Virus record (IMG/VR): IMGVR_UViG_3300025592_000043
Coordinates: 1 to 33,179 of that record
DNA from: a virus
Length of the DNA stretch: 33,179 nucleotides
Direction: 5' to 3' (one strand)
Of the stretch, positions 562 to 15,175 are shown piece after piece. Under the pieces are notes generated by a model. The model saw only the letters and a list, made by a program, of their open reading frames with translations, searched no databases and was not told the DNA's origin. The translations under genes and the position numbers were made by a program. Within the stretch, counting starts at the first letter, position 1, and the number at the start of each line of letters is the position of its first letter.

Positions 562-1023
562 CTAAATAGTCCTTAGTAATAGTCTGCTCATTTCATCAAA
601 GTAATTCCTGCCGTACATCATCTTAGTAACACTCTTATGAGAGTCTAATACCAAAGGTGCTTCAACTTTAGACCCACCAAGATTGTGTTGCTTATTATAA
701 TTGGGTTGTTTTGATAATCGTTTTATATCAGTAATTCCGTTTGATAATCTATTACGACAAGTACATAGTGGAACACCGTATTTGTTTGAGACTTGCCTTG
801 CTGTTTGTGTAGTTCCGTCAGACAGTGTGTATTCCTTGCACTTGTAAGTACGCTTAGGTCTATTAGCACCAACAACTCTAAATACAGAAACAGGGTCAGT
901 GTACTTCTCAAGTCTGCAACGAGCAGATGGTGTTGACATATGTAATTTCTTGGCTAACTCGCCTGGTGTTATTTCAGTGCCATCGTCTAGCGTGTACACT
1001 TTTTGTTTTCTATTATCTCCCAT
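562..1023 (-). CDS. Protein with duplicated HTH-like repeat, last gene of the modification cassette
   Basis: A 153-aa protein of unknown function. I chose the ATG at 1023 because AAGGAGT lies about 10 bases upstream. The frame stays open to an ATG at 1053, but that would overlap the CmoA-like gene further and lacks a ribosome binding site. Two related units are visible. One begins KVYTLDDGTEITPGELAKKL (residues ~8-40); the other begins KEYTLSDGTTQTARQVSNKY (~60-92). Each consists of a YTL-DGT strand followed by a helix-turn-helix-like segment (ELAKKLHMSTPSARCRL and QVSNKYGVPLCTCRNRL). Such repeats occur in DNA-binding phage proteins and next to homing nucleases, but I see no nuclease motif. 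It overlaps the upstream CmoA-like gene by 11 bases, so it is co-transcribed with both modification genes. Confidence 0.7.
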   Translation of the reverse strand: MGDNRKQKVYTLDDGTEITPGELAKKLHMSTPSARCRLEKYTDPVSVFRVVGANRPKRTYKCKEYTLSDGTTQTARQVSNKYGVPLCTCRNRLSNGITDIKRLSKQPNYNKQHNLGGSKVEAPLVLDSHKSVTKMMYGRNYFDEMSRLLLRTI

Positions 1024-1678
1024 TAGAACAATACTCCTTGCTTTGTACGACATAACCCAAAAAATTATAACTTTGCCAAACAGGGGTTACTCTGCCTAAC
1101 TCAGTAAGTTCGTTAATAAGTTCAGACTCGGTTTTGCAAAACATAGAAACAGACAACTGATTATCTTTGTCTAGTATCTCCGAGTCGGTAAAATTCTCTC
1201 TCTTTTTCTGTATGTGCATTCTATGTAAAAGAGTCTGTAATCGTGTGTCGTCCAAATACACCTTTTCTGCCACTAAAAATATCGAACCTTTGTCGATGTG
1301 TCTCTTTATTGCTTTAAGGGTTTTCTGACGCTTAATTGAGCCTAGAAACTGCAAAAAGAACATACTTGATATTACACCTACATCAGCAAGTTCGTTTAAT
1401 ACGTCTTCACAGTCTCCGACTATGTGTTTGAAACCATCAAATGTTTTCATGTTCACTTTGTCGATTCCAATATATTTACAATTATCAACCTTTGGAAGAT
1501 TGTTTAGAAACCGACCTGTAGAACAACCTAAATCAACAGTTACACTGTCGGGCTGTGAGAACTCTTTAGCAATATGAGAAAATATGCAGTCTAAAGATTT
1601 GTAATTAGGGATAGACAGGTTGATGTGTTGGTCAAACTCTTCTTGTTCTTCAAAATTAAATGGGTCAATATTATTCAT
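1013..1678 (-). CDS. CmoA-like SAM-dependent enzyme (possible carboxy-SAM synthase)
   Basis: A 221-aa Rossmann-fold SAM enzyme. Motif I is VDLGCSTGRFL (residues 48-58), and the acidic end of the second strand is GID (71-73). It aligns along its length with CmoA: FDQHINLSIPNYKSL matches the CmoA start, FFLQFLGSIKRQKTL matches TLQFLEPSERQALL, and AEKVYLDD matches SEKFSFED. LLHRMHIQKKRENFTDSEI matches [20 protein letters not shown], and VWQSYNFLG matches LWFQCFNFG. CmoA makes carboxy-SAM from SAM and prephenate for tRNA wobble-uridine modification. The start at 1678 (ATGAATAA overlapping the methyltransferase stop) is preferred over 1717 because it gives tight coupling and a CmoA-like length. 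Oddity: in my from-memory alignment, E. coli Arg199, which contacts the carboxylate, falls on Asp172 (after Lys171). Carboxy-SAM synthesis is therefore not certain; it may be a divergent SAM-modifying enzyme. Confidence 0.8.
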   Translation of the reverse strand: MNNIDPFNFEEQEEFDQHINLSIPNYKSLDCIFSHIAKEFSQPDSVTVDLGCSTGRFLNNLPKVDNCKYIGIDKVNMKTFDGFKHIVGDCEDVLNELADVGVISSMFFLQFLGSIKRQKTLKAIKRHIDKGSIFLVAEKVYLDDTRLQTLLHRMHIQKKRENFTDSEILDKDNQLSVSMFCKTESELINELTELGRVTPVWQSYNFLGYVVQSKEYCSNGR

Positions 1679-2834
1679 TGTCAATTTCGTCCTGTACCAT
1701 TTGTATTCTAGTTCCAAGCCATTCCATTACATTTATTGCCATAGAACGCCCACAAGCCTCATATCTTTTTGATACAGGGCATTCTTCTTTAGGCTTTCCT
1801 CTGTACGGAATCTGTGTGTAGTTGTCGGGAAAACCTTGCAACCTCTCACATTCTAAAGGCGTTAATCTTCTAATAACATTATTACGTGGCACAGCACCTT
1901 CCAAAAAGACACATGGTTGTCTATTGCCACCTGTCATCGCTGTCAGAGTGGGAGAGCGCTCTTCTTTTTGTATTCTTGGCGCACCACCGTCAGGTGAACG
2001 CTGTTCAAAACATAATACTGTAGGCTTATCATTTGCTGTTAATGTGTAAGACGCACCATCTTGTTTAAATCCACTACCATTAGATTTAGTGTGGGAGGTC
2101 TGAATCGCTATAGGGTCTGTTACCAAGTCTGTAGGTGATTTGTAATCACGAGCGGCGATTGTAGATGCTACATTGTCTTGAACATATTTATCGCTTCTGA
2201 CAATGCGGTGAGTAGTTTTTTCGGTATTTGTTTTCCCCTTAGTTCTGCGCGGCGGAGAATACCCCGACATTGCTTCTCGGTCAAATAGAACCTTTGCGGG
2301 ATTTCTCCAATCTCCAAGATATCCGACAACGAACACACGCCTTCGTCTTTGAGGCACGGCTCTGTTATGTCGTTGTGTTCTGATGTACTGAGCGTCAAGA
2401 ACCCTGTAGGAGAACCCATACCCGCATTCTGCCAACCCGCCAAGGAAACTTCCAAAATCCCTTCCTTTGTTCGAGGACAAAACTCCGGGTACGTTTTCCC
2501 AAAGTACCCATTGTGGTTTAACTCTATCAACCAACTTAATAAACTCAAGTGCGAGGTTTCCACGGTCATCCTCGAATCCTTTTCTAAGCCCTGCAATACT
2601 GAAACTCGCACAGGGAGTTCCTCCAACGATGAGGGAAACAGGTCGTTTGAAATCATCTTTTTTTATCTCCGTAAAATCCCCGAAATTATTTACATCGGGG
2701 TAATGGTAATTTAGTACAGCAGAGCGAAACTCATCTATCTCAGACAACCCTTCGCATTTCCATCCCAAAGGTTTCCATGCAACAGATACAGCGTCTATTC
2801 CACTACATATAGATAGGTAGTTCATCCTACTCAT
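1671..2834 (-). CDS. C5-cytosine DNA methyltransferase with altered cofactor pocket
   Basis: A 387-aa Dcm-type enzyme with motifs in order: I LSICSGIDAVSVA (7-19), IV GGTPCASFS with catalytic Cys75 (71-79), VI WENVPG with Glu113, and VIII AVPQRRRRVFVVG (159-171). A target-recognition region follows (~200-320), then IX RRLTPLECERLQGFPDNY and X YEACGRSMAINVMEWLG. Two usually conserved residues differ: the Gln after the catalytic Cys is Ala76, and the Asn of motif X GNS is Arg363 (codon CGT, 1746-1748). The equivalent positions in M.HhaI are Q82 and N304, which line the SAM methyl pocket. The start could be the ATG at 2834 or at 2825; the second has GAGGG 9 bases upstream. The gene overlaps the downstream CmoA-like gene by 8 bases. 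It probably modifies phage DNA, possibly with a non-standard SAM; target sequence unknown. Confidence 0.93.
   Translation of the reverse strand: MSRMNYLSICSGIDAVSVAWKPLGWKCEGLSEIDEFRSAVLNYHYPDVNNFGDFTEIKKDDFKRPVSLIVGGTPCASFSIAGLRKGFEDDRGNLALEFIKLVDRVKPQWVLWENVPGVLSSNKGRDFGSFLGGLAECGYGFSYRVLDAQYIRTQRHNRAVPQRRRRVFVVGYLGDWRNPAKVLFDREAMSGYSPPRRTKGKTNTEKTTHRIVRSDKYVQDNVASTIAARDYKSPTDLVTDPIAIQTSHTKSNGSGFKQDGASYTLTANDKPTVLCFEQRSPDGGAPRIQKEERSPTLTAMTGGNRQPCVFLEGAVPRNNVIRRLTPLECERLQGFPDNYTQIPYRGKPKEECPVSKRYEACGRSMAINVMEWLGTRIQMVQDEIDNE
2168..2656 (-). other. Long same-strand alternative-frame ORF inside the methyltransferase
   Basis: A 162-codon frame lies wholly within the methyltransferase gene on the same strand in another frame. 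Its sequence (GWQNAGMGSPTGFLTLSTSE, CSLSDILEIGEIPQRF, ACRGILRRAELRG-type segment QCRGILRRAELRG) matches, as I recall, hypothetical phage proteins often annotated elsewhere. This part is opposite the AECGYGFSYRVLDAQ...QRRRR...GYLGDWR region of the methyltransferase, so its conservation may simply echo the conserved methyltransferase codons. I see no clear ribosome binding site. It is reported as a possible dual-coding frame, not as a firm gene. Confidence 0.25.
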
Positions 2835-9850: not shown

Positions 9851-11123
9851 AGCACAGATTGAGTTACCACCTAAGTTAGTTCCTGTCTTTGAGGGTGAAG
9901 CAAGATACAGAATAGCATACGGTGGACGTGGTTCAGGCAAGACAAGAACCTTTGCACTAATGACTGCTGTTATGGGTTATCGTTGGGGAATGGCAGGTAA
10001 GAAAGGACAGATACTATGCGCTCGTGAGTTTATGAACTCCCTAGACGATTCATCACTAGAAGAAATCAAGACATCCATAAGGTCAATAGACTGGCTTAAC
10101 GATTATTACGATGTGGGCGAGAAGTACATCAGGTCTAAAGACGGCAACATACATTACACCTTTGTAGGACTAAGACGTTCACTAGATGCTATTAAGTCTA
10201 AGGCACGTATCATGTTGGCTTGGGTGGATGAGGCAGAACCAATGAGCGACATGGCATGGCAGAAACTAATACCAACAGTTCGAGAAGAAGGCTCAGAGAT
10301 ATGGGCAACGTGGAATCCCGAATCAAAGTACAGCGCAACACATGAACGATTTAGAATATCACCACCTAAAAACTCTAAGATAGTTGAACTCAATTACACT
10401 GACAATCCTTGGTTTCCAGATGTACTAGAGGCAGAACGCCTAGAAGACAAAGCCAAACGTATCGATATGTACGAACACATTTGGGAAGGTGGCTTCTTAG
10501 TATTCAGTGAAGGCGCTTACTATTCAACAGAGATGCGCTTGGCTAAGGAAGAAGATAGAGTAGGTGAGGTTAGATACGATAGAGATAAGGGTGTAGTAAC
10601 TGCTTGGGATTTAGGAATAGGCGACTCAACATCTATTTGGTTTGCTCAGTACATCGGCACAGAGATACACATCATTGACTATTACGAAGCATCAGGTGTT
10701 GGATTAGACCACTATGCTATCGTATTACAAGAGAAAGGTTACGTGTATGAACAACACATATTACCGCATGATGTAAGGGTTAGAGAACTAGGCACAGGCA
10801 AGTCAAGACTAGAGACATTAGATGGTTTAGGCATTAGAAATGTAGAGATAGCACCTGACCTAAGAGTAGATGACGGCATTCAATCAGCACGTTCAATGAT
10901 TCATAAATGTTGGTTTGATGCAAATAAATGTGAAAAAGGTATCGATTGTTTGATAAACTACACACGAGATTGGGATGAAAACGGTAAGACTTGGCGCTCA
11001 AGACCTCGACATGATTGGGCATCGCATGGCGCAGATGCTTTTAGATATTTGGCGATAGGTTACAGACCAATGAACGAATCTTGGGGTAAGCCTATAAAAC
11101 GTAACATTAAGGGAGTTGTTTAA
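9843..11123 (+). CDS. terL: Terminase large subunit
   Basis: A 426-aa packaging motor starting at GTG 9843. Walker A is AYGGRGSGKT (25-34) and Walker B is IMLAWVDEAEPM (about 120-131). The C-terminal nuclease has Asp256 in AWDLGIGDSTS, Asp in LPHDVR (about 309) and Asp in ASHGADAFRY (about 398). These mark the RNase H-like fold of the Terminase_3/6 type. It uses ATP to pump DNA into the prohead and cuts the concatemer. The length is typical. It overlaps the next gene by one base. Confidence 0.96.
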   Translation: MSKAQIELPPKLVPVFEGEARYRIAYGGRGSGKTRTFALMTAVMGYRWGMAGKKGQILCAREFMNSLDDSSLEEIKTSIRSIDWLNDYYDVGEKYIRSKDGNIHYTFVGLRRSLDAIKSKARIMLAWVDEAEPMSDMAWQKLIPTVREEGSEIWATWNPESKYSATHERFRISPPKNSKIVELNYTDNPWFPDVLEAERLEDKAKRIDMYEHIWEGGFLVFSEGAYYSTEMRLAKEEDRVGEVRYDRDKGVVTAWDLGIGDSTSIWFAQYIGTEIHIIDYYEASGVGLDHYAIVLQEKGYVYEQHILPHDVRVRELGTGKSRLETLDGLGIRNVEIAPDLRVDDGIQSARSMIHKCWFDANKCEKGIDCLINYTRDWDENGKTWRSRPRHDWASHGADAFRYLAIGYRPMNESWGKPIKRNIKGVV

Positions 11124-14100
11124 TGGGTTTATTTGATGAGTTGTTAAGTCAGCCAGGTGTTACAGCAACAGGCGGTGGCACAGGGTACGACCCAAGAGAT
11201 GACGAGATGGAAGTGCGCTTCACAGCAGAAGGCACTCCTTACAATGCTAGACCTGGTACTCCGTTACATGAAGGACACACTAGAGCAAACCAACCTATGT
11301 TCGACCTTCCAACGGTCGAAGTACCTAAAGAACCATCATTACTGAATTACGGATATGACCAAACTGTACAGCCACCTCAACAAGTTGACGTAAATCCTAC
11401 GCAAGAATACATTGACCCTATGTCGTTATACAACAGACAAGGCAGAGCAGATTACATCCCACAGAACATTGTAGATACAAACACAGTATTCGGCAGTCCA
11501 AGTCTAGGCTCATTACCAAACCCTACTCAAGACGCTAGTGCTATGGAAGCACTTAACAAAGCATCAGCAGAACGTGATAAACAAGCGCAGATTGAAGCAC
11601 AACTACAGGTATTACTAAAGGCTCAAGGACTAGATAATCGTGCTGAGTGGGATATGCGTAGAGCAGACGACCAATTTGCTAACCTAGACAAGCAGTACGA
11701 TATTAACAACCAAGTAGCCACAGATGACTTCGGCAACCCACTATTAAACGCTAATGAGCATGGTCAAACAAGTTACGACATAAACGCAATCAAACAAGAG
11801 TCTCTTGACAATCTAATGATGCAGGATAGAAAGCCTGTAGCCAATGTAGCCACCCCACCTGTAGTAGCACCAACAGACAACAAACCTGATTATCCAAGCA
11901 ACATGACACCTTATGCAATAAACCTACTAGAGGAACAACGCAAAAGAAACGAGATGTTTCAGGGTATAGGTGATACAGCAACAGGTATTTATGAAGGCGC
12001 TAAGACATTAGGCTCAGATATTTATGATGACGTTACAGGTTTTGACTATAAAGGATTAGGTTCAGATATTTATAAGGAAGGTGCTGACGCTGTACAAGGC
12101 GCAAAGGATTTATACACAGACTTTAATAAGCCTGATACTCGTACTCACAGACAAAGGATGATTGATAATCAGACTAATGTTGTTGAGCCTGTTAAAGAGT
12201 TTATAACTGATACTATTCCTGAATTTGCAGGTGATGCTTATGAAGGCATCTTAGGTCCTCTTGTAGGTAATTGGTATGACAACCTGTCTAAAGATGCAGA
12301 AGGTCCTACACAAGAGTACGATTCAGCAACAGGCGTTCAGAAACCTATGGTGTTTAACTTTAAGAAGTCTCTAGCAACAGAAGTTAAAGGACTTGTGGAT
12401 GCTGCAACAAGTCCTGTAGAGACAGCAGATGCTATCGCTAGTGTAATTTCAGGCGCAGTTCAACACACGCTACCTGATGATATGGCTTGGAATGAAGACT
12501 CTAAGAAGATGGCAGGGGCTATTGGACAAATGTACGCTGAAAGATATGGCTCTATAGATGGGTTTAAGAAAGCATTAGCAGAAGACCCTGTTCCTGTATT
12601 AATTGAATTAACAGGCGCAGGATTAGTTAGTAAGGTGGTTGCAGCGAGAACCCTTGCTTCTATGAAGAAAATTGATATGGGTGAGGCTTTAGAGAAGTTC
12701 ACAGACAAGGCTGTAGAGACAGCAACAATGGGAATGGAAAAGAGAGGGTTTCGTAAGGAACTGATGGTTTATCATGGTTCGCCTCATAAGTTTGAAAAGT
12801 TCGACCACAAGTATATGAGTTCAGGTGAAGGTGGTCAAATGATGGGTTATGGTACTTATCTTGCAGAGCATCCTAGTGTTGCTAAAACTTATGCGCCTCG
12901 CGACATGGTCATGGAAGACAAGTTATTGAAATTGTATGAAGACGCTATGGACTTTAGAAGACCTGGTGGCGAAGACGTTTTTGCCTATGAGGTTTATGAA
13001 AGAGCATTAGACCATTGGACTCCAAAGGAAATATCAGAATACATCAAAGACACATATAAGGGCGATGATTTAGTTAAAGCAGAAAAAGCACTTGGCAATT
13101 TCAAAAAAATGTATGAGGAGTCTGACAGTTATTTATACGATATAGATTTGCCCGATAAAACCATTGCTAAGATGCTAGACTCTGATAAAACAATTATGGA
13201 GCAATCTGATTACGTTATATCTGCGTTAGACGATATTTACCCTAACCTGTCTAAAGAAATTAACAACGCAAAACGAATTAAGCAGAAGTTAGACAAGACT
13301 ACAAACAAAGCAGAAAGAGATAGTTTGTTTCAAGAGTATGCTGATATTAAAAATCGTTTAGGTTTCAACTTGGATGACAATGCTCATTCTCTCTATAGAG
13401 ATTTAGAGAATACACTAGGCTCTGACAAGAAGGCTTCAAAACTTCTTGAAGATAAAGGAATACCAGGTGTGAAGTTTTGGGATGGAGATTCAAGAGGTTC
13501 AGGTGAAGGAACAAGGAACTTTGTCATATTTAACGAGAATAGCGCTAAGGTTCTAAAGCGTAATGAGGTGGATATACCTAATATTGACGATGGTGTATTA
13601 GGTCAGATAGGTAAGACAAAAAACCCTACAACCGATTTAAGAAACTCTCTCAGAGAGGGTGGATATAAAATAGACATGGACGAAGGCATCTCGGGCGAAA
13701 TTAAGTTAAGTCGTATCGAAGTTCCACCTAATGTTCGGGGCAAAGGACTTGGTACAGATGCGATGAATCAGATTGTTAAAATGGCTGATGAAAGTGGCAA
13801 GACTATAACTTTAACACCTGATACATCATTTGGCGCAACCTCAGTTTCGAGATTAAAGAAATTCTATAAGAAGTTTGGATTTGTAGAGAACAAGGGTAAG
13901 AACAAAGACTTTTTATACAAAGATTCAATGCTACGACTACCTAACAGTCCAAAAGTGGGCAAACCTAACAAAGTAACAGATGGTCTATTAGGTCAGACAC
14001 CTGTCAAGGGTGTACACCTAACCATGGAAGAGTTTGATGACTTCAAGATGGGTGCTACAAGAGACTCAGAGCCAGGCATCCACTTTGGTACTAATTCGGC

Positions 14101-15175
14101 ATCAGGCGAGAAACTGATTGAAAACAAGAAGTTTCAGATTGAGAATAATTATATAGGCAAGCCTAGAAACCCTGTTAATTCTCCACAAGGTATTAAGAAG
14201 ATACAGGCTGACTTAAACATTAGTAAGCCACTTAGAGTATTTGAAGAACAAAGAATGATGGGCGGAAGATGGGATGCTCACCAAATTGGTAGAAGTTTGT
14301 TTGAAGTAGATGAGTTGCCAAGAAGGTTTACTGAAGCAGACAGAGAAGCGTGGTACGAAGGGTATTTATCTTCCAAGGTTACTATTGATGGACGAGAAGT
14401 AGATGTACCACTTGAAGTCAACAAAGATGGCTCTACTCCAGATTGGAATTATTCAGAGTTAGATGCCAAGCAAGAATCAGAGTGGATTAATAATTTTCTT
14501 AATGAACGTGGGTACGACCATATTATCTATGACAACGCTTATGAAGGTGGTGGTGATTCACTTGGTGTATATGATTTATCTAAGATTAAGCAAACAGGCG
14601 CAGAGCGCTATGCAACATTAGCAATACCTACAGGTGGTTTACTAGCAACAGATGACGAAGCCCAAGCAGAAGAAGAACTTACAGACGGATTAATAAACAA
14701 CGTCAAGTCTTGGAAGCCTAACAACAATCTTGTAACCTTCGTTAAGACTATGGAGAACGACCCACTAAGGGTAGGCAACACCAAGGTCAAAGAATATGAT
14801 GATGTAGGACACAAAGCAAAGGGTTACGGCACTAAGTCAGGACTACTTGCACAAGATACAGAGGCAGAAGCAACCAACGCGCTTAATAAGAAGTTAGTTG
14901 ATGCTAACAAGGCAGTTGACAGACTTGTTAAAATAGACTTAAATGAAGACCAAAGGAATGCGTTAGTATCATTAGTCTATAACGTAGGTGCAACAGGTTT
15001 TGGTAAATCTAATGCCCTAAAGGCGTTAAATAATGGTAATATAAAGACATTCTTAAAAGAAGCGTTCGACCCTAAAGTGGGCTTTGTCAAGACAAAAGGT
15101 AAGATTGTTAAAGGCTTAGTCAATAGAAGAGCGAGAGAAAAGCAGATTTTCACTAAGGGTAACTATGGCAATTAA
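11123..15175 (+). CDS. 1350-aa polyvalent protein: two ADP-ribosyltransferase-like domains, GNAT, lysozyme-like
   Basis: A giant multidomain protein directly after terL. Residues 1-~500 are low-complexity and helical. About 545-820 form an ADP-ribosyltransferase-like (LPD/ART) domain: VYHGSPHKFEKFD, MMGYGTYLAEHPSVAKTYA and RNFVIFNENSAKVL. About 840-955 are a GNAT-like acetyltransferase: IEVPPNVRGKGLGTDAMNQI and FYKKFGFVENKG. About 960-1165 are a second ART-like domain: GVHLTMEEFDDF, GIHFGTNSASG and IIYDNAYEGGGDSLGVYDLS. About 1195-1350 resemble a GH24 lysozyme: FVKTMENDPL, YDDVGHKAKGYGT and ALVSLVYNVGATGFG. Such polyvalent proteins are usually packaged and ejected with DNA to modify host targets. 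In the lysozyme part the usual catalytic Thr before GYG is replaced by Ala/Lys. Confidence 0.85.
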   Translation: MGLFDELLSQPGVTATGGGTGYDPRDDEMEVRFTAEGTPYNARPGTPLHEGHTRANQPMFDLPTVEVPKEPSLLNYGYDQTVQPPQQVDVNPTQEYIDPMSLYNRQGRADYIPQNIVDTNTVFGSPSLGSLPNPTQDASAMEALNKASAERDKQAQIEAQLQVLLKAQGLDNRAEWDMRRADDQFANLDKQYDINNQVATDDFGNPLLNANEHGQTSYDINAIKQESLDNLMMQDRKPVANVATPPVVAPTDNKPDYPSNMTPYAINLLEEQRKRNEMFQGIGDTATGIYEGAKTLGSDIYDDVTGFDYKGLGSDIYKEGADAVQGAKDLYTDFNKPDTRTHRQRMIDNQTNVVEPVKEFITDTIPEFAGDAYEGILGPLVGNWYDNLSKDAEGPTQEYDSATGVQKPMVFNFKKSLATEVKGLVDAATSPVETADAIASVISGAVQHTLPDDMAWNEDSKKMAGAIGQMYAERYGSIDGFKKALAEDPVPVLIELTGAGLVSKVVAARTLASMKKIDMGEALEKFTDKAVETATMGMEKRGFRKELMVYHGSPHKFEKFDHKYMSSGEGGQMMGYGTYLAEHPSVAKTYAPRDMVMEDKLLKLYEDAMDFRRPGGEDVFAYEVYERALDHWTPKEISEYIKDTYKGDDLVKAEKALGNFKKMYEESDSYLYDIDLPDKTIAKMLDSDKTIMEQSDYVISALDDIYPNLSKEINNAKRIKQKLDKTTNKAERDSLFQEYADIKNRLGFNLDDNAHSLYRDLENTLGSDKKASKLLEDKGIPGVKFWDGDSRGSGEGTRNFVIFNENSAKVLKRNEVDIPNIDDGVLGQIGKTKNPTTDLRNSLREGGYKIDMDEGISGEIKLSRIEVPPNVRGKGLGTDAMNQIVKMADESGKTITLTPDTSFGATSVSRLKKFYKKFGFVENKGKNKDFLYKDSMLRLPNSPKVGKPNKVTDGLLGQTPVKGVHLTMEEFDDFKMGATRDSEPGIHFGTNSASGEKLIENKKFQIENNYIGKPRNPVNSPQGIKKIQADLNISKPLRVFEEQRMMGGRWDAHQIGRSLFEVDELPRRFTEADREAWYEGYLSSKVTIDGREVDVPLEVNKDGSTPDWNYSELDAKQESEWINNFLNERGYDHIIYDNAYEGGGDSLGVYDLSKIKQTGAERYATLAIPTGGLLATDDEAQAEEELTDGLINNVKSWKPNNNLVTFVKTMENDPLRVGNTKVKEYDDVGHKAKGYGTKSGLLAQDTEAEATNALNKKLVDANKAVDRLVKIDLNEDQRNALVSLVYNVGATGFGKSNALKALNNGNIKTFLKEAFDPKVGFVKTKGKIVKGLVNRRAREKQIFTKGNYGN

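Follow-up and report, generated by a model that had tools for sequence, protein, structure and literature searches.

A phage operon predicted to carboxymethylate DNA cytosine, with a methyltransferase apart from the published CmoX lineage

Results

Proposed function of the gene pair

Two overlapping genes of an IMG/VR virus record (33,179 bases, without end repeats; analyzed at its full length and called here the window) very probably constitute a phage DNA-modification operon that makes carboxy-SAM (Cx-SAM) and carboxymethylates DNA cytosine, as judged from sequence comparisons and from analogy with a characterized phage system. A CmoA-like enzyme would convert SAM and prephenate to Cx-SAM, and the overlapping C5-cytosine methyltransferase (MTase), turned carboxymethyltransferase, would use it on DNA. 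In the proposed mechanism, Cys75 would attack C6 of the flipped cytosine, Arg363 would hold the carboxylate of Cx-SAM with Glu359 probably orienting this arginine, and the replacement of the usual Gln by Ala76 would make room. The carboxymethyl group would thus be delivered to C5, giving 5-carboxymethylcytosine (5cxmC). This base would be expected to protect the phage genome from restriction by the host.

The precedent is Synechococcus phage S-B43, in which CmoA makes Cx-SAM, CmoX, a homologue of C5-MTases, makes 5cxmC, and CmoY links glycine to this product (Yang et al. 2025, Nat Commun, 7 December 2025; PMC12783734). The evidence for that system includes a crystal structure, HhaI resistance and LC-MS data, the latter obtained both in vitro and in vivo (PMC12783734). 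The preliminary description of the window, which proposed carboxymethylation of cytosine by such a pair, was therefore correct in kind and already published, as Yang et al. had shown it for S-B43.

Gene anatomy

The features of the pair are summarized in Table 1. The overlap of a Dcm-type MTase with a CmoA-like gene, from which the preliminary description had started, was confirmed by matches to PF00145 and TIGR00740 and by the exact eight-base sequence shared by both genes. A longer CmoA-like form of 234 aa, starting at a TTG at 1717, was set aside as a merely mechanical ORF, the ATG being preferred. Among the relatives of the same lineage, CmoA starts overlap MTase stops by 1–17 nt in 38 of 38 measurable pairs, and MTase plus CmoA is the sole gene combination kept across otherwise different phages, so the overlap in the window is not due to chance. 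From this arrangement we infer translational coupling of the two genes. The lack of a CmoB-like partner, also claimed beforehand, was borne out, with no match to PF08003 found on the 33-kb contig.

Table 1. Features of the putative carboxymethylation operon in the window
Feature	Position	Strand	Basis
CmoX-like C5-cytosine DNA (carboxy)methyltransferase (putative), 387 aa	1671..2834	-	PF00145, motif X Arg, tree; ATG at 2834, stop at 1671
CmoA-like Cx-SAM synthase (putative), 221 aa	1013..1678	-	TIGR00740; PDB 4gek/4iwn by sequence and fold; ATG at 1678, stop at 1013
Eight-base overlap ATGAATAA, MTase stop / CmoA start	1671..1678	-
Catalytic Cys75 codon (motif IV TPC)	2610..2612	-
Ala76 codon (M.HhaI Gln82 position)	2607..2609	-
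Glu359 codon (M.HhaI Lys300 position)	1758..1760	-
Arg363 codon (M.HhaI Asn304, SpCmoX Arg350 position)	1746..1748	-

The contig, which may be a fragment of a phage genome, carries SU10-type portal, adaptor and capsid genes, plus an SSB and a Sak annealing protein, and its terminase is 48–52% identical to those of phages of Paracoccus and Sulfitobacter, among others. Downstream of the pair, an ORF of 163 aa (562–1053) overlaps the end of the CmoA gene. This ORF was left out of the system because it is common only to the contig L001 and its Ren-like and HNH matches are weak. Elsewhere in the window, 11123–15175 encodes a polyvalent virion protein of 1350 aa that carries a phage lysozyme domain at its C terminus, one stretch resembling GNAT and another weakly resembling an ADP-ribosyltransferase.

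The CmoA-like protein

The best NCBIfam model for the CmoA-like protein was TIGR00740 (CmoA, E 1e-19), with a score of 71 bits that lies below the equivalog cut-off of 193.3 bits. The closest solved structures by sequence were those of E. coli CmoA (4gek and 4iwn, E ~1e-14), which were also the top structural matches of the predicted fold (pLDDT 87). In E. coli CmoA, Tyr39, Asp62, Gly64, Ser66, Asp89 and Asp117 contact SAM, and Glu164 is in the active site (PMC3663124); the window protein keeps these residues as Y26, D49, G51, S53, D73, D89 and E138, respectively. Asn132 of the E. coli enzyme is kept neither in the window CmoA nor in that of S-B43, the two being 28% identical. Arg199, which in E. 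coli CmoA forms a salt bridge to the carboxylate, is not conserved in phage CmoAs, being replaced by Asp172 in the window and by Glu188 in S-B43. Arg199 was dropped as a test of CmoA function, since the biochemically active S-B43 enzyme is also devoid of it, and for the same reason its absence is no objection to the window CmoA. Compared to the E. coli CmoA/CmoB pathway for cmo5U34 in tRNA, the window shares the CmoA fold and most SAM-contact residues, but it is without CmoB and its predicted acceptor is DNA cytosine.

The methyltransferase and its three-residue signature

The window MTase matches PF00145 (E 8e-53) and shows a C5-MTase fold with the catalytic Cys75 in motif IV (GGTPCASFS), while its motif X (CGRSM) places Arg363 in the column of M.HhaI Asn304. 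Its predicted structure matches both HhaI and 8YF3. The catalytic part was mostly modelled with confidence and residues 196–321, the target-recognition part, were not, for which reason no DNA specificity is claimed. The contig itself gives no hint of site specificity either, since the GC dinucleotide is not depleted (observed/expected 1.02).

Gln82 and Asn304 of M.HhaI mark conserved positions of motifs IV and X that have been shortened in M.HhaI, M.SssI and other C5-MTases, which lets these enzymes accept extended SAM analogues (PMC10666283). In SpCmoX, the position of Asn304 is occupied by Arg350, which contacts the carboxylate of Cx-SAM (PDB 8YF3); activity is lost in the R350N mutant, and the wild-type enzyme accepts Cx-SAM only (PMC12783734). 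Enzymes with Arg at this position are called here R-type, and those with Asn N-type. All 154 aligned R-type enzymes, on SPPC, TPC and one FPC backbone, had a small residue (Ser, Ala, Cys or Val) at HhaI position 82 together with E300 and R304; in the window the signature is Ala76, Glu359 and Arg363. Gln was found at position 82 in 163 of 163 N-type enzymes, among which only one (L097) had Glu at position 300. We read the change at position 82 as steric relief and R304 as charge recognition, with Glu300, one helical turn before the arginine, probably fixing it. In the main text of PMC12783734, no mention of the equivalent of position 82 was found. The earlier suggestion that the neighbouring MTase would use Cx-SAM made by the CmoA-like enzyme thus finds support in the S-B43 precedent and in Arg363 with its two co-varying residues.

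Concerning the similarity with S-B43, both systems have a CmoA homologue that adjoins a C5-MTase homologue, without CmoB, and both MTases have Arg at HhaI N304, Glu four residues earlier and a small residue after the catalytic Cys. They differ in the backbone (SPPC in S-B43 CmoX, TPC in the window), in gene order (CmoA-CmoY-CmoX in S-B43, MTase followed by CmoA with overlapping ends in the window), and in CmoY, present in S-B43 and not found on the window contig. With respect to engineered enzymes, the M.MpeI mutant N374K, as cited in PMC12783734, also carries a basic side chain in place of the motif-X Asn, which permits the use of Cx-SAM, but it is a laboratory mutant of a CpG enzyme and the residue is Lys, whereas the window enzyme is natural, has Arg, and is changed at positions 82 and 300 as well. 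M.HhaI Q82A/N304A and M.SssI Q142A/N370A (PMC10666283) have the same two pocket positions altered for a larger transferable group. The engineers put Ala at both; the phages have Ala or Ser at 82, Arg at 304 and additionally Glu at 300, and this Arg adds charge recognition.

Linkage of CmoA with R-type enzymes

In a CmoA-anchored sample of 80 contigs, nearly all those with enough flank have an adjacent C5-MTase, and Arg at N304 is seen with three different backbones, namely SPPC as in S-B43, TPC as in the window, and FPC in a single enzyme, L056. Every window-lineage enzyme readable at motif X has R at HhaI N304, and the nearest CmoA-less relatives have N. In an MTase-anchored viral sample, CmoA was present at 6 of 7 R-type loci versus 0 of 71 N-type loci (Fisher p 2.7e-8, only indicative because rows are related), and it was present at none of the best 80 N-type loci of bacterial genomes. 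A DNA pattern for motif X matched 68 contigs, 66 of them with MTases of the window type, and 61 of these 66 carry CmoA; as many rows are related, such counts express linkage and not independent events. The adjacency, whose uniqueness to this contig would have spoken against the proposal, is thus conserved in the database, also with regard to the 38 overlaps mentioned above. No relative of the window lineage was found among the matches listed for named phages or among the best 80 bacterial-genome loci.

An R-type enzyme with the full signature occurs in L098 (4001–5735), where its gene overlaps a putative ThyX-like ORF. No recognizable CmoA was found on this contig of 58,965 bases. A host CmoA could serve the L098 enzyme, as E. 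coli CmoA served S-B43 CmoX (PMC12783734).

Other loci showed related arrangements. The third backbone, GFPC, is so far represented once, by L056 (5022–6645), which lies next to CmoA and has all three of small82, E300 and R304. In Streptomyces phage TurkishDelight (L258), a gene annotated as 'methyltransferase' has the full signature and lies between ParB-like genes and a glutamine-amidotransferase gene, an arrangement consistent with the ammonia-type ligase cluster described by Yang et al. (PMC12783734). The SPPC-type C5-MTase of Methylophilales phage Melnitz-3 (L257) has Leu in the N304 column and Pro in the column of position 82, and its gene lies close to one for a RimK-like ATP-grasp protein.

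End product of the pathway

No CmoY-like ligase was found in the 33-kb record by phmmer, profile or PF00733 searches, and the neighbourhood of the pair in the window has no asparagine-synthetase-like PP-loop ligase. Since the contig is without this ligase, 5cxmC itself may be the end product; the alternative is that the record does not include the gene for a later step. A CmoY-like ligase encoded elsewhere, by phage or host, could amidate 5cxmC, the virion base then being an amide as in S-B43. This is rather unlikely; in its favour, CmoY-like ligases (PF00733, PP-loop) occur near at least eight window-lineage loci, being directly upstream of the MTase in L020, L021, L023, L028, L033, L041, L100 and L101, and the record, having no end repeats, may be a fragment. 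Among well-framed loci matching the motif pattern, 8 of 19 have a CmoY-like gene, but it is absent nearby in the other 11, as it is from the whole window. The upstream position of this ligase in several relatives resembles the S-B43 system and also speaks for carboxymethylation as the main reading. Neighbours other than MTase, CmoA and CmoY, searched for a conserved CmoY substitute in the window lineage, are specific to the phage type, and no other conserved partner that could replace CmoY was found among them.

CmoA beside ordinary-pocket enzymes or without a C5-MTase

Four loci, L007 (7121–8636), L008, L051 (5106–6627) and L053, have CmoA genes closely related to that of the window, overlapping C5-MTases that keep Q82 and N304, with CNGM or YNGM as motif X. 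These enzymes are either unconverted methyltransferases or have another way of binding Cx-SAM, and because of them adjacency alone is no proof of conversion. In the CmoA tree, all phage CmoAs, a host-like fragment excepted, fall on the same side of E. coli CmoA, and the CmoAs of L007, L008 and L051 sit within the window group, some branches being long or weak; as far as the tree indicates, CmoA has been exchanged between MTase backbones. The CmoA-like match L256, from Moraxella phage Mcat8, sits on a very long branch and may be something other than a CmoA.

In bacteria, CmoA serves tRNA modification. This role, the four ordinary-pocket loci, and phage CmoAs without any C5-MTase (L079, L081 and L091) would fit a window MTase making ordinary 5-methylcytosine, with the CmoA-like protein acting on tRNA through host CmoB or depleting SAM against SAM-dependent defences. 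We consider this very improbable, as Q82 and N304 are both lost in every window-lineage enzyme, as in the proven CmoX, the contig has no CmoB, and MTase and CmoA overlap in every measurable pair; moreover, wild-type SpCmoX, with the same Arg, is restricted to Cx-SAM (PMC12783734). Carboxymethylation of cytosine by the window pair is the preferred reading.

Further variety was observed around CmoA. In the Staphylococcus phages vB-SscS-F1 and SPbeta-like (L012, 4974–7492; L013, 4998–6697), CmoA accompanies a C5-MTase whose motif X (VVGGVIN) is without Arg and which keeps Gln82; any residue that binds the carboxylate must be located at another site. L012 additionally has a CmoY-like ligase. In L079 (1327–2719), L081 (5223–6630), L091 (5009–7363) and L064 (414–2745), CmoA is without a C5-MTase nearby. 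MTS-type methyltransferase-like ORFs overlap or adjoin it in L079 and L081, a Methyltransf_12 ORF is found in L091, and in L064 a DruA-like ORF, preceded by MT-A70, is near it. These are possible representatives of other carboxymethyltransferase classes.

Origin of the window lineage

The origin of the window MTase was studied in a tree of 83 MTases from which the N304 column was left out. The window-type R enzymes came out as a single group (SH-aLRT 91) within the ordinary TPC enzymes, and its sister was the viral N-type L097 (67% identical, no CmoA; SH-aLRT 100 for the 24-row group). The nearest relatives outside the R-type group, 45–67% identical, are ordinary orphan MTases of the Dcm type, from Pseudanabaena phage Pan4, Roseobacter phage CRP-821 and IMG/VR L097, which have a TPC motif IV like the window but differ from it in retaining Gln82 and Asn304 and in lacking an adjacent CmoA. 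Forcing the window type into one clade with the SPPC R-types, SpCmoX included, lowered the log-likelihood by 271 (AU test p 2.9e-6), and forcing it with L056 was 125 log units worse (p 2.7e-5). By parsimony, there are three changes between N and R on the tree.

From these data the window MTase is probably a separate family that reached the same change independently. Common descent with S-B43 CmoX, masked by fast evolution of the backbone, is very improbable: the three residues are common to all R-types, which also go with relatives of a single phage CmoA family, and few N-type SPPC relatives are in the sample, but the nesting of the window type within N-type TPC enzymes, with L097 as sister, and the rejection of a single clade with SPPC R-types argue against it.

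Discussion

The natural base 5cxmC was described in December 2025 from one enzyme lineage (PMC12783734). The survey of CmoX enzymes in that paper, as stated in its main text, filtered for an SPPC motif IV plus R350. Having TPC, the window lineage fails this rule, and it is outside the published CmoX set as the main-text filter defines it. The novelty supposed in the preliminary description does not hold for the chemistry, which is published for S-B43.

A broader reading, which we put forward tentatively and hold somewhat short of probable, is that phages have converted separate C5-MTase lineages at least three times around one mobile phage CmoA, through the same change at three positions (a small residue for Gln at 82, Glu for what is usually Lys or Arg at 300, and Arg for Asn at 304), with the window lineage ending at free, negatively charged 5cxmC. 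The pocket positions changed by the phages are those known from the engineering of M.HhaI, to which the phages added a glutamate. The signature, being near-perfect, makes it simple to test from sequence for carboxymethyltransferases, whatever the C5-MTase family. With the window as a second lineage, excluded by the motif filter given in the main text of the 2025 paper, 5cxmC is likely commoner than the published count, and further site specificities for placing carboxyl handles on DNA may come with the new enzymes.
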